Below, piece by piece: positions 33,448 through 46,173 of a stretch of DNA of 64,000 nt. Position 1 is the stretch's first letter; each line of letters opens with the position of its first letter. The stretch spans positions 1,984,001 to 2,048,000 of the forward strand of contig NZ_CP016499.1 in assembly GCF_001713475.1 (NCBI RefSeq). The letters are read 5' to 3'. Source of the stretch: Agrobacterium sp. RAC06. Lineage in GTDB: Bacteria > Pseudomonadota > Alphaproteobacteria > Rhizobiales > Rhizobiaceae. The position numbers and the translations under genes are program-made. Under the pieces are notes generated by a model. That model did no database searches and was not told the origin of the DNA. It saw only the letters and a list, made by a program, of their open reading frames with translations.

Positions 33448-33534
33448 TCAGAAAATCAGCATCAGGAGCAGAACGACGACCGCCAATCCGATGAGAAATA
33501 TGACCCCGATGGTGCTACCTATAAACTTGAGCAT
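33448..33534 (-). CDS. Tiny single-span membrane peptide, 28 aa
   Basis: The frame reads MLKFIGSTIGVIFLIGLAVV then eight more residues, ending LIF at the stop. It is one hydrophobic span with a lone positive charge at the N-terminus. AAGGAG stands seven bases before the ATG, as strong as any site in this window. It is divergent from the Mrp operon and shares its regulatory gap. Small membrane peptides of this kind often modulate transporters or kinases; that is inference. Too short for standard gene callers. Confidence 0.65.
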   Translation of the reverse strand: MLKFIGSTIGVIFLIGLAVVVLLLMLIF

Positions 33535-33708
33535 GTGTCTTCTCCTTAGCGATGTTCGTGAGTGAACGCGGTCGGGGCTTTTGCCCCGAATTCCACTTTA
33601 GGAAATCGTGTTGGTAGGCCGATGGTTCCCCTCCGTTCGAATACGCGGCCGTGCAGACTTTGACGAAATGCGTCCTCGGGATCGTGAAGCTTGAAGAGTA
33701 TTCGCGCG

Positions 33709-33722
33709 TTCGGAATTCCGAA
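33709..33722. promoter_or_regulatory. Palindrome TTCGGAATTCCGAA, distal activator-site candidate
   Basis: Perfect 14-bp palindrome, repeated identically at 33738-33751. It lies about 120 bp upstream of the predicted start of the Mrp operon transcript, the usual place for binding sites of NtrC-type activators. Confidence 0.65.
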
Positions 33723-33737
33723 TTCCGATAGCTCGCA

Positions 33738-33751
33738 TTCGGAATTCCGAA
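33738..33751. promoter_or_regulatory. Palindrome TTCGGAATTCCGAA, proximal activator-site candidate
   Basis: Second exact copy, 29 bp start to start from the first and about 90 bp upstream of the predicted transcription start. Paired sites favour cooperative binding by activator dimers that form a hexamer. Confidence 0.65.
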
Positions 33752-33804
33752 CACACTTCGAGAAAGCTGACATCTAAAGCCCTGATTTTCAGGTGTTTTC
33801 AGAC

Positions 33805-33820
33805 TGGCATGCCTCTTGCT
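33805..33820 (+). promoter_or_regulatory. Sigma-54 (-24/-12) promoter of the Mrp operon
   Basis: TGGCATGCCTCTTGCT fits the consensus TGGCACG-N4-TTGCW, with GG and GC exactly 10 bp apart. Predicted transcription start near 33831, giving a short leader of about 23 nt with AGAGGAA before the GTG at 33854. Confidence 0.75.
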
Positions 33821-33853
33821 GTCCGATAATGGACAACAAGAGGAACTCGCACC

Positions 33854-36172
33854 GTGAACTTTGAGTGGACCATACTGATCGCACTGGCCGGGGCCATCAT
33901 TGCCAAACCGGCCTCGTCGCTGCTCGGGCGATACACCGGCTGGGTGGTAAGCCTCATACCTCTGTTCATCTTCGCCTCGCTTCTCACGCATCTCGCTCCA
34001 GTGGCGAACGGAGAGGCGTTGATCGCGCAGCTGGCCTGGGTGCCCTCGCTCGGCGTCGAACTCGCGTTCCGCCTGGACGGTTTCGCACTGCTGTTCGGCC
34101 TGCTGATCAGCGGCATCGGAACGCTGGTGGTGATCTATGCGGGGGCCTATTTCGCCGAAAAGCCGAGCGCCGAGATCGGCCGTTTCCTCAGCCTCATCAT
34201 GCTGTTCATGACCGCCATGCTGGGAACCGTCCTGTCGGACAATCTCATTGTCATGTTCGTCTTCTGGGAACTGACAAGCCTCGCCTCCTTCCTGCTGATC
34301 GGCTTCGACGGTCACAAGGAAGCGGCACGCAAGTCGGCGCTGCAGTCACTGATCGTCACCGGCGGCGGCGGTCTCGCGCTGTTTGCCGGCATCCTTCTCA
34401 TCGGCATGACGCTCGGCACCTTCTCGTTCACGGAAGTCCTCGCACGCTCGAACGAACTGGTCGCAAGCAGCTGGGCTATCCCGATCGCAGTCCTGATCAT
34501 GATCGGCGCCTTCACCAAGAGCGCGCAGTTCCCGTTCCACTTCTGGCTGCCCAATGCCATGGCCGCGCCGACACCCGCCTCCGCCTACCTGCATTCGGCA
34601 ACCATGGTGAAGCTCGGCGTCTTCCTGCTCGCCCGCTTCGACGGTGTGTTTGCCGGCATGCCGGGCTTCGGACATACGCTGGTGGTCTTCGGCTCCTTGA
34701 CCATGGTCGTTGCGGCCCTGCAAGCACTTCGCGCCGAAGGCTTCAAGGCGGTCCTCGCCCAGTCCACCGTCGCCTCGCTTGGCATTCTGGTGATGCTGAT
34801 CGGCCTGACAGGCGAAGTGGCAGCTGTCGCCACGGTCGGCTTTATCCTCAGCCATGCGCTCTACAAGGCGGCCCTGTTCTTCTGCGCGGGCACCGCCATC
34901 CATGCGACCGGCGAAACCCGATTGGACAAGCTTGCCGGCCTCGCGCGCTTCCTGCCGGTCACCGCCGTTGCTGCCGTCCTTGCCAGCCTGTCGATGGCGG
35001 GACTGCCCCCCTTTGTCGGCTTCATCTCGAAGGAATATCTGTTCGAAGCGCAGCTTGCCAATGACTGGAACATCCTGCCGATCGCGGCTGCGGTTCTCGT
35101 CAATGCCGTCATGGTCGGCGTGGCCGGCGTCGTATCGATCCGTCCGTTCTACTTCAAGTCCGAGGCTGAACGTGAGATCCATCATGGCGAGACATCAGGC
35201 CTTCTGGCAGGCCCCTTACTGCTCGCAGCCGGCGGCATTCTGATCGGCCTTATCCCCGCGCCGGCTGGACAGTGGCTCATTGGTCCGGCTGCCTCGGCAC
35301 TCCTCGGTCAGCCGGTCGACGTTTCGTTCAAGCTCTGGCACGGCCTGACGCCCATGCTGGTCCTGTCAATGCTCGTCGTCGCCATCGGCGCTGTCATCGT
35401 CATCCAGTGGACCCGGATCCACAACGCGCTCCGTCGTTACGACACGCTGTATGCCTTCCTCGGCGATCGCTTCTACCACAAGGCACTGAACGGCGTACTG
35501 GCGATGGCACGCCTGTCGACGAGAGTGCTCCAGAACGGCGACCAGCATCGCTACACCACACTTGTCGTCCTGGCGGTCACCCTGGGTCTGGCCATCGCCT
35601 TCCTGGCGGCCCCGTCGGCCGACTTCCTCGCCTCTGAGGGCAGCATCCGCATCTCGGTTGCACTTGTCCTGATGCTGACGGTGGTCGGCGCACTCGCAAC
35701 GATCTTTGTCCGCTCGCTGATTGCCGGGCTCGTCTCTGTCGGCATCGTCGGCTTCGGCTCGGCTGTGATCTTCATGTTGAACGGCGCTCCGGACCTCGCT
35801 CTGACACAGATGGCCGTTGAAACGCTGATCGTGATCCTGATGACGGCCGTACTCATCAAACTGCCGTCGCGACGCCGGCACTCGCGCACGCTTTCCGAGC
35901 GCCGGCGCGACGGCGTGATCGCTTCAGGCTTTGCCGTGATGATGTTCATCGCGCTCGCCTCCATCGGCGTCACGCCCATCGACCTGCGTCTTTCCGACTA
36001 CTTCGGCGAAACGAGCTACCTCGAAGCCTATGGCCGCAATGTCGTGAACGTCATTCTCGTCGATTACCGCGCCATCGATACGCTTGGCGAGATCGTCGTC
36101 GTCGCCATTGCCACCATTGCCGCCTGGGGACTGCTGCGCGGCTCCCTCAAACCCGCCCGCAACAAGGAGTGA
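33854..36172 (+). CDS. mrpA: Mrp/Pha cation:proton antiporter subunit A
   Basis: 772 aa, GTG start after AGAGGAA. NuoL-like core with the conserved Glu in VFWELTSLASFLLIG and Lys residues in GAFTKSAQFPFHFWLPNA and LHSATMVKLGVFLLARF. C-terminal third is the MbhD/DUF4040-like part (GAPDLALTQMAVETLIVILM) with VNVILVDYRAIDTLGEIVVV at the end, so the subunit is the usual long MrpA. It forms the proton and cation path of a Na+(or K+)/H+ antiporter complex in the inner membrane. First gene of a sigma-54-type operon. Confidence 0.95.
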   Translation: MNFEWTILIALAGAIIAKPASSLLGRYTGWVVSLIPLFIFASLLTHLAPVANGEALIAQLAWVPSLGVELAFRLDGFALLFGLLISGIGTLVVIYAGAYFAEKPSAEIGRFLSLIMLFMTAMLGTVLSDNLIVMFVFWELTSLASFLLIGFDGHKEAARKSALQSLIVTGGGGLALFAGILLIGMTLGTFSFTEVLARSNELVASSWAIPIAVLIMIGAFTKSAQFPFHFWLPNAMAAPTPASAYLHSATMVKLGVFLLARFDGVFAGMPGFGHTLVVFGSLTMVVAALQALRAEGFKAVLAQSTVASLGILVMLIGLTGEVAAVATVGFILSHALYKAALFFCAGTAIHATGETRLDKLAGLARFLPVTAVAAVLASLSMAGLPPFVGFISKEYLFEAQLANDWNILPIAAAVLVNAVMVGVAGVVSIRPFYFKSEAEREIHHGETSGLLAGPLLLAAGGILIGLIPAPAGQWLIGPAASALLGQPVDVSFKLWHGLTPMLVLSMLVVAIGAVIVIQWTRIHNALRRYDTLYAFLGDRFYHKALNGVLAMARLSTRVLQNGDQHRYTTLVVLAVTLGLAIAFLAAPSADFLASEGSIRISVALVLMLTVVGALATIFVRSLIAGLVSVGIVGFGSAVIFMLNGAPDLALTQMAVETLIVILMTAVLIKLPSRRRHSRTLSERRRDGVIASGFAVMMFIALASIGVTPIDLRLSDYFGETSYLEAYGRNVVNVILVDYRAIDTLGEIVVVAIATIAAWGLLRGSLKPARNKE

Positions 36173-36178
36173 CCGACC

Positions 36179-36583
36179 ATGTCCGTCATCTTTTCCACCA
36201 TGTCCCGCCTGTTCTTCGTGCTTCTGCTGGGCGCGGCTGTCTTTATGCTGTTTCGCGGCCATAACGAGCCAGGCGGCGGCTTCATCGGCGGGCTGTTCGC
36301 AGCTCTCGCCTTTGCCCTGCTTGCTCTCTCCGACAGCGTGGCGAAGGCCCGCAAGGCGCTGATCGTCCACCCGGTCGTGCTGATCGGCATGGGTCTCGTG
36401 CTGGCCTTCGCCAGCGGCATACCCGGCCTGATCTCGGATGGATCGTTCCTGACCCATTGGTGGTTCAAGCTCGGCTCCACGCATCTCGGCACCGCTACCG
36501 CCTTCGATATCGGCGTCTTCATGGTCGTTATCGGCGGCGTGCTTTCCCTGGTTTTCCGTTTTTATGAAGGAGTAGAACAGTGA
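36179..36583 (+). CDS. mrpB: Mrp antiporter subunit B
   Basis: 134 aa, separate from subunit A here, unlike the second operon of this window. Four membrane segments; [20 protein letters not shown] near residue 22 is the MnhB signature. Six bp after mrpA, overlapping mrpC by 4 bp. Required for assembly of the complex in studied systems. Confidence 0.94.
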
Positions 36584-36958
36584 GCCTGATCTACGCGTTT
36601 GCCGTTGCCGCCCAGATGGGTGCCGGCATCTACCTCCTCCTGTCGCGCCATGTGATGCGCATCCTGTTCGGGGTCGTGCTGCTGTCCACCGCAGCGAACC
36701 TTCTGATCTTCATTGCAGGCGGCCTGCAGTTCACAGCGCCCCCCGTCATCGAACCGGGATCACAGACGCTGGGCGAAGGGGCTGCAAATCCCCTGCCCCA
36801 GGCGCTCATCCTGACCGCGATCGTCATTGGCTTTGCACTCGTCTCGTTCGCCGCAGCCCTCGTGCTCAAGGCCTACTACACGCTCGGCTCGGTCTTTACC
36901 GACGAGCATAACGATGCCGAAGCTCTTGGCTCGCCTTTCGAAAAGGAGGCCATCCGCA

Positions 36959-36966
<8 letters not shown>
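36580..36966 (+). CDS. mrpC: Mrp antiporter subunit C
   Basis: 128 aa, NuoK-like with three membrane segments. [20 protein letters not shown] and [20 protein letters not shown] are the family landmarks. Start overlaps mrpB (GTGA form), end overlaps mrpD by 8 bp, so translation is coupled through the operon. Confidence 0.94.
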
Positions 36967-38460
<1,494 letters not shown>

Positions 38461-38464
<4 letters not shown>

Positions 38465-38796
38465 CCCTCGTCAATCGTATCGGCAGGTCCATGACACTTG
38501 GACTGGTCTTCATCAACGAACTCGTCCGTTCGTCGATTGCCGTCGCCCGTCAGGTGCTTGGCGACAGCTCGCAGCTCAAGCCGGCGATCCTCGCCGTGCC
38601 GCTTGATCTGCGCAGCAGAGCGGGCGTTACGGCGCTTGCGAACTGCGTGAGCCTGACCCCCGGCACGACCTCGCTGCATGTCAGCGAGGATCTGAGCACC
38701 CTCTATGTTCACGTTCTGGATGCGCCACAGCCCGATGCGGTGGTGGACAGCATCAAGAACACGTTCGAGACACGCATAAAGGAGATCGAAGGATGA
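38461..38796 (+). CDS. mrpE: Mrp antiporter subunit E, short form
   Basis: 111 aa, start overlapping mrpD as ATGA. LVFINELVRSSIAVARQVLG and SLTPGTTSLHVSEDLSTLYV are MnhE core. Compared with the 158-aa MrpE of the second operon here it lacks the N-terminal pair of membrane segments; the upstream in-frame sequence is mrpD read in another frame, with no hydrophobic span. Probably a natural short variant of this operon type. Confidence 0.9.
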
Positions 38797-39083
38797 TTGC
38801 GCTTCTGGATGGGTTTCTATCAACATTTGCCGCCATCATGATCGCCGTCCTGATGGTACCGCTGCTTCTTGCGGCCGTCCGCATGGTGACGGGCCCCGGC
38901 TATGCCGACCGCTTCATCGCGCTGGACATGCTGACCGGCATTGCCGTCGCGATCGCCGCCTTGACGATGATCGTCACCGGCCGGCGCGAATTCCTCGACG
39001 TCGCCTTCGGGATCGCGTTGATCGGGTTCCTTGCGACGTGTTCGCTGTCTGCTCTTCTCGAGAAGAAAAAGGAGGATGCGTGA
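38793..39083 (+). CDS. mrpF: Mrp antiporter subunit F
   Basis: 96 aa, three membrane segments, ATGA overlap with mrpE. RMVTGPGYADRFIALDMLTG near residue 30 is the MnhF signature. In other systems this subunit is also linked to bile-salt or Na+ efflux. Confidence 0.94.
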   Translation: MIALLDGFLSTFAAIMIAVLMVPLLLAAVRMVTGPGYADRFIALDMLTGIAVAIAALTMIVTGRREFLDVAFGIALIGFLATCSLSALLEKKKEDA

Positions 39084-40324
39084 TGCTCGCAATCCTGTCC
39101 ATTCTGTTCAAGCTTGTCGGTGTCGTGTTCCTCTGCATCGCCGCCTACGGCGTCATCAAACTTGCCGATCCGTTCCAGCGCATGCACGCCGCCACCAAAG
39201 CCGGCACCTTGGGTGCAGGCCTGGTGATCATCGGCAGCGTCATCGCCCATGGAGCGCTGGATGCGACGGTAATGGGTATCCTGACCGTGGTCTTCCTGCT
39301 GCTTACCGTGCCGGTCGCTGGCCATCTCCTGGGTCGCGCCGCCTATGTCTCGGGTGCGCAGCTGACGCTTTCGGGCGATGACGCCCTTGACGGCGTGCTG
39401 ACGCGGGCCGACCAGTCGCTCGGCAGGCGGAGCGGCTGGGATCCCGTCACTCCGATAACACTAACGGTCGACGAGCGAGCCAGATCGCCCGTACCGAAAC
39501 CGACGCCACGAAACGACATGCCGGTATTGCCGGCACTCGAGGCGGTCCGGTTCGCCGTCATCGACGGACAGGTTGCTCACGTTGCGGAACGTGCTTGTGC
39601 CATTGCCAAGCAAACAGGGGCGAGCCTCTCGGCATTCACCATCATAGATACGCATGCGATCCATGCCGCAGCCGATCAGGCGCGCGTGCGTCGGTTGATC
39701 CGCGAGCGGGCGAGCGACGCCATCAGCGATCTCAAATCCGTGACGGCGGCGACGGACGTGGCTTCGATCCTGCACTACGATGAAGGCGATCCCGAAGCCA
39801 TTCTCCGCTGCGAGACACAGCCGGGCCAGACCGTCCTTGTCCTGCCGTGCCAGGGCTGGTTCCATCACCAGGTCGAGGCCCGGATGGACCGCACCACCTG
39901 GGATCCGGATGGCCTTTTGCGTCTGCCGAGCTGCCACAGCGGCCCGGTGCTATTCGTAGGCAAGACGCCTTTGCCTGACACGGCACGGACGCTGGTGGTT
40001 CGTGATTGTGGCGAAGATCATCTGGCCCCGCTCGTCGAATGGTCCCTTCTCAACAATCTCTGGGAGGTGACGCAGATCGTGCATGTTGCGGACAAGCAGT
40101 TGAAGGATACCGGATTTGCCGAGATCGCAGACCGTTTCGGTTGCAGCTATACCCGCCATGCGGCGCCGGACAGTGTCTGCGCCATACCGGCCGGGATCGT
40201 CGGTGTACGTGCGGTGGTGCTGGGCCGTACACCACGGCCACTGCGGACGAACTGGTTTGGCGCGCCCTGGCTCGACCGCATCGCACCCGACATGGCAGGT
40301 GACGTCCTGATCATGGAACGGTGA
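39083..40324 (+). CDS. mrpG: Mrp antiporter subunit G fused to universal-stress-like domains
   Basis: 413 aa, three to four times a normal MrpG. Residues 1-115 are MnhG: KLADPFQRMHAATKAGTLGA and three membrane segments. After a linker rich in Pro and Arg, residues about 150-413 form two Usp-like alpha/beta halves (ALEAVRFAVIDGQVAHVAER and ARTLVVRDCGEDHLAPLVEW starting them, SGPVLFVG closing the first). No stop or frameshift separates the parts. The soluble part should face the cytoplasm and may bind nucleotide to regulate the antiporter. The MrpG of the second operon is a plain 121 aa. Confidence 0.88.
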   Translation: MLAILSILFKLVGVVFLCIAAYGVIKLADPFQRMHAATKAGTLGAGLVIIGSVIAHGALDATVMGILTVVFLLLTVPVAGHLLGRAAYVSGAQLTLSGDDALDGVLTRADQSLGRRSGWDPVTPITLTVDERARSPVPKPTPRNDMPVLPALEAVRFAVIDGQVAHVAERACAIAKQTGASLSAFTIIDTHAIHAAADQARVRRLIRERASDAISDLKSVTAATDVASILHYDEGDPEAILRCETQPGQTVLVLPCQGWFHHQVEARMDRTTWDPDGLLRLPSCHSGPVLFVGKTPLPDTARTLVVRDCGEDHLAPLVEWSLLNNLWEVTQIVHVADKQLKDTGFAEIADRFGCSYTRHAAPDSVCAIPAGIVGVRAVVLGRTPRPLRTNWFGAPWLDRIAPDMAGDVLIMER

Positions 40325-40383
40325 GGGCTCGGGCTGGAATAATGTGCTGGCAGGTCAAGCGCGAGTTGGTCTAATCAATCTGC

Positions 40384-41823
40384 ATGTCCTCACTTTCGCG
40401 TCCCAAACTGCCTCTCTCCGTCGCACTGCCACTCTTCGTGGCAGTCGCGATGTTCCTGGTGGCAGTCGGCACGACCCAGATCGGCATCATGGCTCTGCGG
40501 TCGAGCAACGAGACGGGCCTGCGCGATCAGGCGCTGGTCTTCCTCGATGCCGTCGCCGGCAATATTGCTGCCGAGATCAGAGAGGCCGATGCCCGGCAAT
40601 CCGTGCAGCGGACCCTGGCGGCGTCGCTTGAGTTTCGCACCGCGCTTCTCGAAGAAAGCATCGCGGCACGCTGGACCGACACGTCGGGCGAAACGATCAC
40701 GGTGGCGCTGGCCGAGAGCGATGGAGATCTGCTCGATCAGGCTTTGAACGAGGCGCAAGCCAACAGCCCTGGCGACGTCAGTCCGCGACTGGTTCCAGAC
40801 AGATCCGTTCTTCTGGTTGCACGCAGCTACGGAATGGCCGAGGGGCGCCTCTATCTCGCCGCGACCTTTGACACGCAGCCGCTTGAGGCGGCCACGGATG
40901 CCGCGTCCAATGCGGCAATCGGGATCGACATCCTGGTGGCCATCATCGCTGCGGCTGCGGCTTATGTCGTAACACGGCGTTCGCTCAAGCCACTCGATCA
41001 GTTTATCGACCGGCTGGCCGATCCGGAGGGTTCCTCGACAAACGGGGCCGACTGGCGGCGCGGCAACGAATTGCGCCAGCTGGAAGCGGCTCTGGCGATG
41101 CGCGAGCAATCGGAAGCCCAGAGGGTCACCATCCTCGAACAAATGGCGCAGCAGGAACGCGACGGTCTTCTCGCGCGCATGGCAGCCAGCATCGCGCACG
41201 AGGTGCGCAATCCGCTGGCCGGGCTGAAGAACGGCATCTCCACGCTGAAGCGCTTTGGCGACCGCGAGGATGTGCGGAAGGAAACGCTGGCATTTCTGGA
41301 GAACGGGCTCGACAGCATCGGCCGGGTGGTCGACGTCACGCTCTCCACCTATCGCCGGCGCTCCGGATCCAGAATGATCACCGCTCAGGATATTCGCGAC
41401 CTCGAGATCTTGATCGCTCCGGAAGCGGGACGAGCCGGCGTCGGGCTTGCCTGGATGTTCGAGGAGCCGACTGAGTTCCGGGTAGATGTCGATGCGCTCC
41501 GACAAATTCTGATCAATCTGATGCTGAATGCCGTTCGCGCATCACCGCCAGGATCCACCGTCACCGTTTCTCTCACCCGCAAGGATGCCCAGACGGTTGC
41601 GCTCAGCGTCGCCGACGAGGGACCGGGGATGCCGCCCGAGATCGTCGCCGCCATGATCTCGGGCCGTGTCAACGACATCCCCGTGGAGCGCAGCATCGGG
41701 ATCTGGATCGTCGCCTCCCTGGTGGAGCGGATTGGAGCGGATTTGTCGATCCGCAGCGACAACACGGGAACGAATGTCCAGCTGACGTTGGCGACGGCGC
41801 AGCAGGGCGGAGCGGAGACATGA
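40384..41823 (+). CDS. Membrane sensor histidine kinase of the Mrp operon
   Basis: 479 aa. First membrane segment about residues 12-33 (LPLFVAVAMFLVAVGTTQIG), periplasmic domain to about 175, second segment near AIGIDILVAIIAAAAAYVVT. H-box MAASIAHEVRNPLAGLKNGI near residue 270, N-box ILINLMLNAVRASP, G-box DEGPGMPPEIV. The kinase lies 59 bp after mrpG and 1 bp before the response-regulator gene. It should phosphorylate that NtrC-type regulator. The periplasmic domain is the likely sensor, perhaps of ions, pH or envelope state; the ligand is not readable. Ribosome site is weak. Confidence 0.92.
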   Translation: MSSLSRPKLPLSVALPLFVAVAMFLVAVGTTQIGIMALRSSNETGLRDQALVFLDAVAGNIAAEIREADARQSVQRTLAASLEFRTALLEESIAARWTDTSGETITVALAESDGDLLDQALNEAQANSPGDVSPRLVPDRSVLLVARSYGMAEGRLYLAATFDTQPLEAATDAASNAAIGIDILVAIIAAAAAYVVTRRSLKPLDQFIDRLADPEGSSTNGADWRRGNELRQLEAALAMREQSEAQRVTILEQMAQQERDGLLARMAASIAHEVRNPLAGLKNGISTLKRFGDREDVRKETLAFLENGLDSIGRVVDVTLSTYRRRSGSRMITAQDIRDLEILIAPEAGRAGVGLAWMFEEPTEFRVDVDALRQILINLMLNAVRASPPGSTVTVSLTRKDAQTVALSVADEGPGMPPEIVAAMISGRVNDIPVERSIGIWIVASLVERIGADLSIRSDNTGTNVQLTLATAQQGGAET

Positions 41824-41824
41824 C

Positions 41825-43165
41825 ATGGTGACGGCAGGTCGCATACTGGTGGTCGAGGACGACGCGACGCTTGGCCAGTCGCTGCAACAAAGACTTACCC
41901 TGGAAGGCTTCACCGTCAGATGGGCGCGTTCGGCGGCAGAAGCCAATGCAGCGCTCAAGGCTGGGGCACCCGACATCATTCTCTCGGATATCCGGCTGCC
42001 GGATGGCGACGGCGAGACCATCATGCGCCGGCATTTCGAACGCTTCGGATTGGTCCCGGTCATCTTCATGACGGCCTATGGCGACATAGATCAGGCCGTT
42101 CGCCTGGTGCGGGACGGCGCGGTCGATTACGTCAGCAAACCTTTCGATCTCGATCAGCTTGTCGAGACCTTGCAGGGTATCAGCCGCCGCAAGAGCAGCG
42201 GGCCACAGGTTGGGGCGGCATTTTCCGGCAGCAGCGCGATGCGCAAGATCGGCGCGACACTTTTGCGGGCAGCCGAAATCGATCTGCCGGTCCTCGTCCT
42301 CGGCGAGACGGGAACCGGCAAGGAGGTCGCGGCCCGCTATGTCCATGAGGCCGGCCCGCGCAAGAACCTGCCGTTTGTCCCGGTCAACTGCGGCGCATTG
42401 CCTGCAGAGCTTGCGGACTCGCTGCTCTTCGGCCATGAGCGCGGTTCCTTTACCGGCGCTTCGGGCATGCATCGCGGCTTTTTCGAGGAGGCAGACGAAG
42501 GCACGCTTTTTCTGGACGAGATCGGCGATCTGTCGCCCGTGCTGCAGGTGAAGTTGCTGCGCGTTCTGGAAACGCGGGAATTCCGACGGCTGGGGGGAAG
42601 CGAGACACGCAAATTCGGAGCACGTCTCGTCTGCGCCACCAACAAGGATCTCGGCGCCATGGTGGCCGAGGGCCAGTTCCGCGAGGATCTCTGGTTTCGC
42701 ATCAATGTCATCGCCTGCAAGCTGCCGCCGCTCAGAGAAAGACATGAAGAGCTGTCGTCACTGCTTGAGAGCTTCGCATCTGCCGCAGCATCAAGGCTTG
42801 GGCACGGCAGCATCGTCGTTGACGCGGCAGCACATGAAGCGACCAAGCGCCACCGCTGGCCCGGAAACATCCGCGAACTGATCAACCGCGTCGACCGCGC
42901 CGTTGCCATGGGTGACGGTCGTGTCCTGTCCGAGGCTGAACTTTTCCCCGAGGGACTAGCCCGGACGGATACCAAGTCAGGCGTCGTTCAAGACACGAAT
43001 GCCACACTCGCCGACGTACGCGACGCCGCCGAGCGGGCTCACATCAAGGCGGCACTGGCTCGCGCCAATGGATCGCCCAAGGAGGCTGCCGAAGCGCTTG
43101 GGGTGTCGCGAACGACATTGTGGGAAAAGATGCGACGCCTGAACATCAGCCCCGACCACAACTGA
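41825..43165 (+). CDS. NtrC-family sigma-54-dependent response regulator
   Basis: 446 aa in three domains. Receiver 1-120: phospho-Asp in DIILSDIRLPDGDGE, Lys in VDYVSKPFDLDQ. AAA+ ATPase about 135-365: Walker A GETGTGKEVAARYV, sigma-54 loop in HERGSFTGASGMHRG (GSFTGA instead of the usual GAFTGA), Walker B TLFLDEIGDL, arginine region LWFRINVI. C-terminal Fis-type helix-turn-helix SPKEAAEALGVSRTTLWEKM. It activates sigma-54 RNA polymerase by ATP hydrolysis from upstream sites. The -24/-12 promoter and twin palindromes in front of this very operon make it the likely self-activating regulator. Confidence 0.95.
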   Translation: MVTAGRILVVEDDATLGQSLQQRLTLEGFTVRWARSAAEANAALKAGAPDIILSDIRLPDGDGETIMRRHFERFGLVPVIFMTAYGDIDQAVRLVRDGAVDYVSKPFDLDQLVETLQGISRRKSSGPQVGAAFSGSSAMRKIGATLLRAAEIDLPVLVLGETGTGKEVAARYVHEAGPRKNLPFVPVNCGALPAELADSLLFGHERGSFTGASGMHRGFFEEADEGTLFLDEIGDLSPVLQVKLLRVLETREFRRLGGSETRKFGARLVCATNKDLGAMVAEGQFREDLWFRINVIACKLPPLRERHEELSSLLESFASAAASRLGHGSIVVDAAAHEATKRHRWPGNIRELINRVDRAVAMGDGRVLSEAELFPEGLARTDTKSGVVQDTNATLADVRDAAERAHIKAALARANGSPKEAAEALGVSRTTLWEKMRRLNISPDHN

Positions 43166-43252: not shown

Positions 43253-46173
43253 CTAAAACTCTGCAGAGGCGCCGACCCAGAGAGTGCGGCCGATGACCCA
43301 GGGATTGCCGTTGGATGACTTTGCGTTGCCAAGCTCGTTGAAGAGATTGACGACCTTGAAGTTCAGGGTCATTCCATGGTCGTCCACGGATGCGAACTTG
43401 TAAGAGCCGCTCAAATCGACGGTCAGCACGGCAGCGAAAGCCTTGTCATCCCAGATGTCATGCAGCACTCCATCAATGCTCTCGTTGTCGTCGGTGTCTT
43501 CGACGCCATCATATGCGAAGTTGTAGTTGGCAGCGAGACCAAGCGTCAGCCGCTCGTCGAAGAAACTGCCGGAGAGACCGACCTGGGCGCGCAGCGGAAT
43601 GTCCATGTTGCCGGTGACGGCGTTGAATCCAGCCTGCGTGTAGGATGTCCCCTTGTATGAAATCCGTTTTTCCAGATCGTCTTCGTCGACGAAGTAGCTG
43701 TCGGCTGAGACATTTTTTTTTTGTCTGCCCAGGTGATCGAGGCTGCAAGAAGCGAGTTGTCCGCCGGGTTCCACGTGGCTGTCGGCAGTTCCTTCGCATA
43801 TTCGGCCGTCAAGGAGTCATACGAGCCTTTGGCATTGTTGGTCAGCACATAGGACGTATTCGTGGGCGTACGCGAGGAATACTGATCACGAGAACTACGA
43901 TGCAGATAACGAAAGCGCCATTCACCCTCGGTGAAAGGATCGGTAAAGTTGATCGCGGCAGTGAACTCATCCGTATATGGCGTCTTCAGATCCGCAGCAT
44001 CAAGGGTGTAATAGGTTTGCGTCGGCGTCGTTGCGAAATCCCCGACGGCACCTGTGGAGCTCGGCTGCCTTGAGTAGGTCGTGACGCGTGGTTGCTGGTT
44101 CCGAATTGCGTAAGAAAGATTGGCAGCGTCGTAATACCGGTTGAAACCACCGGAAATGCTGAAATCCTCCATCGGCGTTACCGTCGCAACGAGGCGCGGA
44201 GATATGTTCAGGTTGCCCTGATAGTCGTCATAGTCGAAACGGATGCCGGGGCGGAGGTTCAGCCAGTCGAAGGTCTGGTCGAGCTCCAGATAGGCGTTTG
44301 CCTGCATGATCTGCGCATGGATATCGTACGCCTTGTGGACCGTCTTGCTATACGCAAACTGTTCGCCGTAGCACTCTTCCGTCGTGTTGCAGGTAAAGGT
44401 CGATATGTTCGCAGCCCTCAAGGCCGTATAGGCTTGAGCGACGTTGTAGGTGTAGCTGACATAGTCTTCTGCCCGCCATCGGTGAGCCTCAGTGTAGCCG
44501 AACTCGTAGCCGGTCCGGAAAGTACCATTCCCGATATCGCCGGCCAGAGCCTGGGACCAGGTGTAGCTTTCCTGCCCCTGACCGCGCTCCTTGCCCATTC
44601 CGCCTTCTCGGCAAGATGTGGTGGTGGTCGAGGTCGGATCGACGCGGCACCAGTCGAGCATGCTCGATTCGAAGACCTTGGTTCTTGTCCCCGAAATGGT
44701 GCGCCAGTAGGTCGAGATCCAGTTGCGGATCGTGTTATCGCCACCGAGGTTGAGCGCGTCGGATTTCGATGCCGTGATCTTGCTGGTCAGAGAAACGTTC
44801 GAAAGCGTTTCGCCACCGAGCGAAAAATCCTCGAACTCGTACAAGTTCTCCAGCTTGCCTGCATAGGTCCGGGTCGCAGTATCAATCTCAAGGACCCGGT
44901 AATCGTCTGACTCGAAATCCTGATAGTAGTCAGTGTGAATGCCTTCCAGCTTGAACAGGCCGAGATCCGTCTCTGCATTGGCCTGGAACCGGTAGAACTC
45001 GTTCTTGGATTCGGACTGCACGAGCTCGTCGCCGTAGATGTAGTTCTTCGCCTTGTTGGTCCAGGCATCCGTCACGCTGTACTGGCCGATGACAGCGATA
45101 TTGTCCGTGATCGGACCGGTGACCGAGAAAGCCTTCTTCTTCTTGTAGAATTCCGGCTCACCTATGGCATTCGAATTGAGACCATCCTCTGTCGCGAGAT
45201 TGTATTTGACGAGGTCATCACTCTCGTATTCCACCGAGGCCAATGCTCTCAGCCTGTCGGTTGCTGGCTGCATCAGTTCGTACTCGACAACGCCGCCCTG
45301 GAAGGCGCCGTAACGGGCCGACGCATTGCTGTCGATGACCGTTGCGGATTCAACAAAATCCGTGGGCACGAACACGGTCTGCGAATGCAAGCCGTAGATG
45401 CGATCTGCATTGTAGGCCGTATCCTCGTCAGACAGTTCACCGCGGTTGCCGGTGTTGTAAGGCTCCTCGGTCCCCGTGATCGTATTGATGCCGATGCCGT
45501 TCAGGATGAAGTTGTTCTCATAGGTTCGCCCACCCGAGATCGAGACTTCCTGCGGCTTGGTGTTGAGGATTGCCTGGCTCTCGACGCCGGCATTCTCGTT
45601 GGTATCGTTCTGGTATTGCACATTGGGCAGACCGCGCAGGAAGCTGTTGGCATCCCCGCTGCTCGTGCGAATTCCGACCTGGGTTGAATCCATCACGGTG
45701 GTCCCCGTATCCGCCGCGCTCTCGGTTCCGAGTTTCACGCCGCCGCCGGAGGACGACACTGTAATTTCCTCAAGAACGGTCGTGCCGGCAGCAGCGGCTT
45801 CGTCGATCGTGCCTTCGGCAACCAGCGATGCGGTGCGGGCGCCTGTCACGCGGATCTCGATGCCGGCACCGGCAGTGAGGGCGCGCAGTGCAACCAGCGG
45901 ATCGGTTTCGCCGGCGACGGCCGCTGAGGTCCGGCCAGACACGAGGGCTGCGGCATAGCCGACCTGCCAGCCCGTCTGACGCGTGAAGGCCCTGAGGGCC
46001 GCATCGAGCGGCTGCGCAGGGATCGAGATCGCCCGGGGACCGTTCGTCGTCGGACTTGTCCCGGCATCCTGCGCTCGAACCTCAAATACACCGGCCGAAG
46101 CCGAAACCAGTGCCGTGGACACCATGAACATGGCAAGCCTGCGCTTGCCGACCGATACTCTACGCTCTGCCAT
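43253..46173 (-). CDS. TonB-dependent receptor/transducer, frameshifted at an A10 tract
   Basis: About 970 codons in two frames. N-terminus: signal peptide (LAMFMVSTALVSASAGVF), then an STN signalling domain (AISIPAQPLDAALRAFTRQT and GAGIEIRVTGARTASLVAEG), plug and beta-barrel. The frame breaks at 43713-43722, a run of ten A on the coding strand after GCAGAC: upstream reads WADKKK then out of frame, downstream resumes NVSADSYFVDEDDLEKRISY and ends at the aromatic C-terminal WVGASAEF. One extra A (or loss of two) joins them. The STN domain and adjacent FecR/FecI-like genes mark a surface-signalling receptor. Substrate unknown; the M16 protease upstream suggests a protein or peptide ligand. Confidence 0.85.

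Follow-up and report, generated by a model that had tools for sequence, protein, structure and literature searches.

The window analysed here is a stretch of 64 kb from the 4.96-Mb genome of Agrobacterium sp. RAC06, in which seven mrp genes, a membrane histidine kinase gene and a response regulator gene follow each other on one strand, behind a region that carries paired inverted repeats and a -24/-12 element. The features of this nine-gene operon and of its promoter region, in window coordinates, are the following:

33708..33723, no strand: putative activator site 1, GTTCGGAATTCCGAAT, 16 bp (exact match, conserved in relatives)
33737..33752, no strand: putative activator site 2, ATTCGGAATTCCGAAC, 16 bp (29 bp from site 1, ending 52 bp before the -24 element)
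33775..33787, minus strand: likely integration host factor (IHF) site, TAAAGCCCTGATT, matching 9/9 positions of the IHF consensus WATCARNNNNTTR (17 bp before the -24 element)
33805..33820, plus strand: sigma-54 -24/-12 promoter, TGGCATGCCTCTTGCT (exact; predicted start near 33831)
33854..36172, plus strand: mrpA, with MbhD/MbhE domains and a GTG start (domain search)
36179..36583, plus strand: mrpB (domain search)
36580..36966, plus strand: mrpC (domain search)
36959..38464, plus strand: mrpD (domain and family-profile searches)
38467..38796, plus strand: mrpE, short, 109 aa, matching profile positions 45-145 only (domain search)
38793..39083, plus strand: mrpF (domain search)
39083..40324, plus strand: mrpG, fused to a predicted tandem universal-stress-protein (Usp) domain, residues ~150-413 (domain search, predicted fold)
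40384..41823, plus strand: AioS-like membrane histidine kinase, with HisKA and HATPase_c domains and His272 in AHEVRNP (domain search)
41825..43165, plus strand: response regulator of the AioR/ArxR family, with REC, sigma-54 AAA+ and HTH_8 domains (domain search, tree)

Domain and profile searches recover all seven Mrp subunits, A to G, in order and in one operon, which is thereby predicted to encode a complete cation/proton Mrp antiporter. The genes mrpC, mrpD, mrpF and mrpG each overlap the preceding one, only 6 and 2 bp separate mrpB and mrpE from their upstream neighbours, and gaps of 59 and 1 bp precede the kinase and the regulator, respectively. The promoter, the activator sites, the kinase-regulator pair and the target genes are all contained within ~9.5 kb. 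An earlier note on this DNA had given the same gene order with the 59- and 1-bp gaps, as well as two identical palindromes and a -24/-12 element with GG-N10-GC spacing at 33805, and all of this is confirmed, TTCGGAATTCCGAA being exact at 33709-33722 and 33738-33751 and TGGCATGCCTCTTGCT exact at 33805-33820. It had missed the likely IHF site, the GSFTGA loop of the regulator and the length of MrpG (413 aa, not ~110 aa). The mrpE of the window is devoid of the first 44 profile positions, MrpE being ~102-126 aa long in the operons listed, with start codons as chosen by us.

The repeats upstream of mrpA are ~16 bp long and of the GTTCGG-N4-CCGAAC type. Allowing for up to two mismatches, TTCGGAATTCCGAA has three matches in the window, the third overlapping the first, against a mean of 0.32 in shuffled windows; none of 100 shuffles reaches three, and chance palindromes were rejected on this basis. 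The -24/-12 pattern alone is weak, with three one-mismatch matches in the window against 1.37 expected, and the weight of this element derives from its conservation across relatives and not from single-window statistics; a chance match was rejected on its conservation in the mrp operons that have a kinase-regulator pair (see below). At the scale of the whole genome, the exact 14-mer TTCGGAATTCCGAA is found only at these two places, and the one copy with a single mismatch, at C1:3398551, lies inside a predicted 340-aa open reading frame (ORF) with no -24/-12 score above 8/12 within 150 bp on either side. The short repeat (GTYCG-N6-CGRAC) is not enriched, showing 34 matches against 81 for the reversed control, whereas a perfect repeat followed 45-75 bp on by a -24/-12 box occurs a single time in 4.96 Mb, before mrpA. 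It is only the combination of repeat and -24/-12 box that is specific, not the short repeat by itself. The exact GG-N10-GC spacing, its conservation and the presence of one rpoN gene in the genome all point to a sigma-54 promoter. In L168, the other mrp operon of this genome and one of the 11 comparison operons without a kinase-regulator pair (see below), the sites are missing too; a kinase that looks unrelated (27% over its core) is located ~4 kb beyond it.

To place the operon among its relatives, the regulator was used for a genome scan, from which the best 80 of 112 loci were taken. Among these, 14 (L005-L017 and L019) present all nine genes in order, in Rhizobium, Peteryoungia, Agrobacterium albertimagni, Mesorhizobium, Aliihoeflea, Pannonibacter, Aquibium, Chelativorans, Pararhizobium and one metagenome-assembled genome, while L018, a cut contig, shows the same genes from mrpD onward. 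The regulators of L005-L007 are 88-96% identical to that of the window; the Pannonibacter phragmitetus one departs from the shared reading frame near its C-terminus (L014:11146-11365). A near-full-length extended MrpG (~400 or more of 413 residues) is present in 8/397 genomes of the order and 11/394 of the family, and in the class sample 5/385 genomes pass E 1e-22 with MrpG, four of them matching only partly (own genome included in all three counts). The distribution is patchy, since five other genomes of the genus are listed without an extended MrpG at E 1e-22, yet near-identical cassettes exist in other named Rhizobiaceae.

For the promoter comparison, 30 regions around full or partial MrpG matches and two from the own genome were fetched; five duplicates (of L008, L009, L011, L012 and L016) were dropped, and L169 (no mrp) and L018 were also left out. 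The resulting 41 operons, chosen independently of promoter sequence, comprise 29 with the kinase-regulator pair, 11 without it in the fetched stretch and one (L141) ending at the contig edge after mrpG. Many were found through the MrpG search itself, which favours long MrpG copies. An rpoN gene was found in 35 of the 36 other genomes searched.

Using cuts of at least 13/16 core positions for the repeat pair and at least 10/12 for the -24/-12 score, the repeats are present in 29/29 operons with the kinase-regulator pair and in 0/11 without it, and the -24/-12 element in 28/29 and 0/11, respectively (Fisher p 5e-9 for sites versus pair, a statistic that ignores kinship). Sites and pair co-occur across several families of Alphaproteobacteria. 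The earlier note had named the absence of both motifs in close relatives keeping the operon as the result that would speak against it, and the outcome, sites in every operon with the pair, favours the proposed system. The geometry is also well conserved among these 29 operons, with strict GG-N10-GC in 24, a repeat spacing of 30-33 bp in 26 and a gap of 52-54 bp between repeats and -24 in 22. In L007 the automated scoring picked another pair, the true one being at -147 and -117; in L141 two repeats 33 bp apart, overlooked by a scan limited to 200 bp, accompany a GG-N10-GC box of score 9, and from this promoter we would predict a kinase-regulator pair beyond the contig end. Two mrp operons without the pair, L157 and L159, carry a different palindrome ~110 bp before mrpA (GTTCCGGTTCCGGAAC and GTTCCGGTACCGGAAC). 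Three related operons, L144, L161 and L162, read TTTCA instead of TTGCA at -12, though their genomes have rpoN.

Of 30 promoters (those of the 29 operons with the pair, and L141), 22 match at least 7/9 positions of the IHF consensus at a distance of 16-18 bp before -24, and the match is perfect in nine, including L164-L166 from other families of the class. This evidence carries weight through its fixed place, since single matches are mostly no better than shuffles. None of four aio promoters has its best IHF match at that place and orientation with at least seven positions.

Concerning the regulator, its REC, sigma-54 AAA+ and Fis-type helix-turn-helix domains correspond to the architecture of NtrC-type sigma-54 activators (bacterial enhancer-binding proteins). 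Of the 29 regulators, that of the window and ten orthologues have GSFTGA as their AAA+ loop, 16 have GAFTGA and two (L019, L165) have neither string. The recognition helix SRTTLWEKM is present in 18/29 (SRTTLW in 25/29) and also in AioR of NT-26 and pSinA; the regulators of L144, L161, L162, L164 and L166 differ in or just after it. The nearest regulators in plasmid records are annotated AioR proteins (45-47% identical) and others at 45-49%, many without annotation. The alphaproteobacterial plasmid relatives examined (Bosea, Microvirga, Sinorhizobium, NT-26, pSinA, Acuticoccus and Phyllobacterium) adjoin all or part of aioBA, and beta- and gammaproteobacterial ones (~40-42%) adjoin arsenite oxidase or molybdopterin-oxidoreductase genes, none of which was seen at Thiothrix.

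A tree of 46 regulators was built, in which twelve near-copies or outgroup rows of an earlier tree were omitted and several Aio and Arx labels were assigned by us from neighbouring genes. Mrp-, Aio- and Arx-linked regulators form one 38-row clade (support 100/99), with the betaproteobacterial Aio/Arx rows outside its alphaproteobacterial part (95/95) and the Azonexus and Thiothrix regulators falling with the outgroup. A subclade (97/89) groups 21 Mrp-linked rows with the Skermanella row. The Mrp-linked L165 and L194 group with an AioX-linked Elioraea row (95/86), beside other alphaproteobacterial AioR (85/85, not firm); from this placement apart from the main Mrp subclade, it follows that on this tree the mrp link arose or was exchanged at least twice. 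A first tree seemed to have AioR nested inside the Mrp-linked regulators, an arrangement dropped once betaproteobacterial AioR/ArxR-type rows were added, which put the Mrp branch inside the Aio/Arx family instead; rooting is the weak point of the tree. Sequence comparison identifies the regulator as a member of the AioR/ArxR family of arsenic-oxyanion regulators, newly recognised here, and the pair as an AioX-less branch of the AioS-AioR/ArxR family, its closest characterised relatives being the arsenite regulators AioS-AioR rather than NtrB-NtrC. AioX is not found in the cassette, which holds only mrpA-G, kinase and regulator, no search for AioX having been made in the rest of the own genome.

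Two membrane spans are predicted in the kinase, on either side of a ~140-residue periplasmic part that is free of cysteine in the protein of the window. Fold searches with this sensor domain listed mostly kinase cores, and a Cache-like layout is our reading of the predicted strands. Two plasmid loci show related pairs in other settings. On a Pseudoroseomonas plasmid (L194:7562-17055), a related kinase, regulator and PTS IIA gene precede an mrp operon of another layout, and sites of the window type were not found in the three stretches scanned. On a Skermanella plasmid (L196:6459-7506), a Usp gene, kinase and regulator follow a single TGTTC..GAACA site and a -24/-12-like box (TGGCACGCCTCTTGTA), with a chemoreceptor gene downstream on the opposite strand.

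Taken together, the kinase-regulator pair very probably forms a sigma-54 switch that belongs to the operon itself, and a nine-gene, self-regulated transporter operon, including the steps that follow, is the explanation in which we place high confidence. The parts, their conservation and their co-occurrence are read from sequence, and from them we infer phosphorylation, looping, co-transcription, feedback and the nature of the cue. The kinase would detect, through its periplasmic domain, a condition under which Mrp is needed, with cation, alkaline or membrane-potential stress as the likeliest candidates, and would then phosphorylate Asp55 of the regulator. Regulator dimers would bind the two ~16-bp repeats, the inner edge of which is 52 bp upstream of -24, a step with strong comparative support; IHF would bend the DNA at 33775-33787, and the AAA+ domain of the regulator would open the sigma-54 polymerase at 33805-33820. 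Gene order suggests that mrpA-G and the kinase-regulator genes are co-transcribed, leading to positive feedback. By sequence comparison, the pair is an AioX-less branch of its family. Through nucleotide binding, the tandem Usp domain of MrpG may adjust the activity of the pump or signal the state that the pump is in. The earlier note had proposed an operon with its own sensor that switches itself on under cation or pH stress. Of this reading, the sigma-54 promoter, the paired sites and the operon's own pair are supported (29/29 versus 0/11), while the cation or pH cue is something that we only infer.

It should be noted that several points weigh against this explanation. We saw no clear start-up promoter for the kinase and regulator genes; the operon has 2 sigma-70-like matches, no more than shuffles give (1.8), so that basal expression of the two genes would have to come from leak or from a promoter that escaped detection. 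The margin of the repeat-pair score is thin at its low end (13-16/16 with the kinase-regulator pair, 10-12 without), and the threshold of 13 was chosen once a first round of scores was known. Besides TTTCA in L144, L161 and L162, where the sites are also 88-106 bp from the -24/-12 box, the -12 reads TTGTG in L166 and TTGAA in L164. The GSFTGA loop departs from GAFTGA, although eleven operons of the same promoter plan carry it, single IHF-like matches beat shuffles at 0.05 in only 12/30 promoters, and the draft genome of L008 has the operon with no rpoN found there.

The nature of the cue is where the strongest alternatives arise. As the closest characterised relatives of both proteins are AioS and AioR, a signal from metalloids or from the envelope is a serious competitor. 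The same switch could respond to arsenite, antimonite or another metalloid, and the operon would then be an accessory to arsenic metabolism, with Mrp restoring an ion balance disturbed by metalloid stress or arsenite oxidation; we grant this a minor chance. An Agrobacterium Na+/H+ antiporter is said, in an older report, to be needed for arsenite oxidation. In the family sample, aioA is found in 6/13 genomes with the operon against 36/375 without it (Fisher p 0.001, assuming that all 13 are within the sample of 388), but by genus the excess is not significant (3/6 against 25/103, p 0.17). Moreover, the cassette has no AioX, and an arsenite oxidase (AioA) above the cut-off is absent from the own genome and from 20/27 searched genomes with the operon (L019 was outside the search), being present in the other seven. 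On the same negative in the own genome, the operon as a relic of an arsenite oxidase island there was rejected. In A. albertimagni, the aio sites (GTTCAGATAGTTGAAC and GTTCCAATTCTTGAAC) differ from the mrp sites in their inner letters, those of Aquibium are closer, and over the six operon genomes with an aio promoter read they range from clearly different to very similar. Genomes with both types of sites thus offer a natural test of insulation or cross-talk between paralogues.

The second alternative concerns MrpG. Two Usp-like alpha/beta domains are predicted in the C-terminal part of the window's protein, and this predicted fusion of MrpG to a tandem Usp domain is new here; Pfam Usp matches the extension only marginally, in 3/20 members. 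The kinase could read the state of the Mrp complex, perhaps via this domain, and not a free ligand, a scheme we consider rather improbable. All 29 operons with the pair encode a long MrpG (286-444 aa), against 2/11 without it, which would fit, as would the Usp domain of the KdpD kinase, found among the weaker Foldseek matches of the extension, and the separate Usp gene that stands ahead of the related pair on the Skermanella plasmid, where a single site of this kind and a -24/-12-like box precede it. Against it stand the bias of the MrpG search towards long copies and the two operons L142 and L143, with long MrpG (371 and 373 aa), no sites and no pair seen, the contig of L143 ending 2.5 kb after mrpG. 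A stronger form, in which the regulator reads the pump through the MrpG extension with no periplasmic binding protein, so that the transporter would be the sensor controlling its own synthesis, is doubtful.

Binding of the repeats by an unrelated factor, with the neighbouring pair regulating something else, is very improbable, given that sites and pair agree in 40/40 typed operons (29 with both, 11 with neither), that the same site type is found at aioB promoters adjoining a homologous regulator and that the arrangement has no second copy in the genome. General nitrogen control through the same -24/-12 site, conceivable inasmuch as NtrC also uses sigma-54 promoters, is the least credible and was rejected on the tree placement of the operon's regulator with AioR/ArxR and on its NtrC profile score, below the cut-off (360.8 against 558.6 bits).

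At the borders of the self-regulated operon, a 28-codon ORF encoding a single hydrophobic helix (33448-33534, minus strand) diverges from mrpA. This ORF and a SIMPL-type gene, also upstream, were rejected as parts of the unit, as among L005-L019 (stretches of unequal length) the ORF occurs only in L005 and the SIMPL-type gene in L005 and L007. Downstream, a TonB-dependent receptor gene (43253-46173, minus strand) is split into two frames (875-aa and 173-aa pieces), and is in one frame in L005 and L013.

The switching-on of Mrp antiporters is little described in the literature searched. In the full-text search (judged by titles, abstract starts and term counts, with most subscription papers not covered), no paper was recognised that deals with regulation of an Mrp operon by sigma-54 or an NtrC-type activator, or with an MrpG-Usp fusion, and the earlier note's statement that no Mrp system with dedicated sigma-54 control had been described stands within that coverage. 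In one study, mrp genes are reported as not significantly changed in a Dietzia two-component mutant (PMC9602371); another brings up the Mrp genes and a sigma-54 regulator, each in a context of its own (PMC12516955). The operon would link regulators of arsenite oxidation to cation homeostasis, and its compact ~9.5-kb organisation makes it possible to look for the cue in a single series of fusion experiments.

Comparison with known systems helps to define what is particular to this one. Mrp antiporters with all subunits A to G present the same seven subunits in order; here MrpG extends into what is predicted to be a tandem Usp domain, the MrpE subunit is short and the promoter is of the sigma-54 type. 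UspE-type proteins are likewise tandem universal stress proteins, but in our case the Usp part is fused to a membrane antiporter subunit. ZraS-ZraR and AtoS-AtoC also combine a membrane kinase with an NtrC-type regulator and their family profiles match the pair; they differ in target, and the pair scores below the curated cut-off for each of the 25 families listed for either protein. The nearest system is AioXSR/aioBA of Rhizobium sp. NT-26 and A. tumefaciens, with a regulator 45-47% identical, whose recognition helix is the same as here in NT-26 and pSinA, and a kinase, AioS, related to the present one (about 31-35% over the C-terminal half). The aioB promoters of NT-26 and pSinA share the plan of the mrp promoter, a -24/-12 box preceded by two such repeats with a spacing of 33 bp, and one study reports NT-26 AioR as acting upstream of an RpoN promoter (PMC6011840). 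According to the same source, aioXSR is a separate operon in NT-26, whereas here the genes for kinase and regulator are part of the very operon that is their predicted target; AioXSR has, in addition, the periplasmic binding protein AioX and aioBA as target, while the present cassette is AioX-less and its predicted target is mrp.

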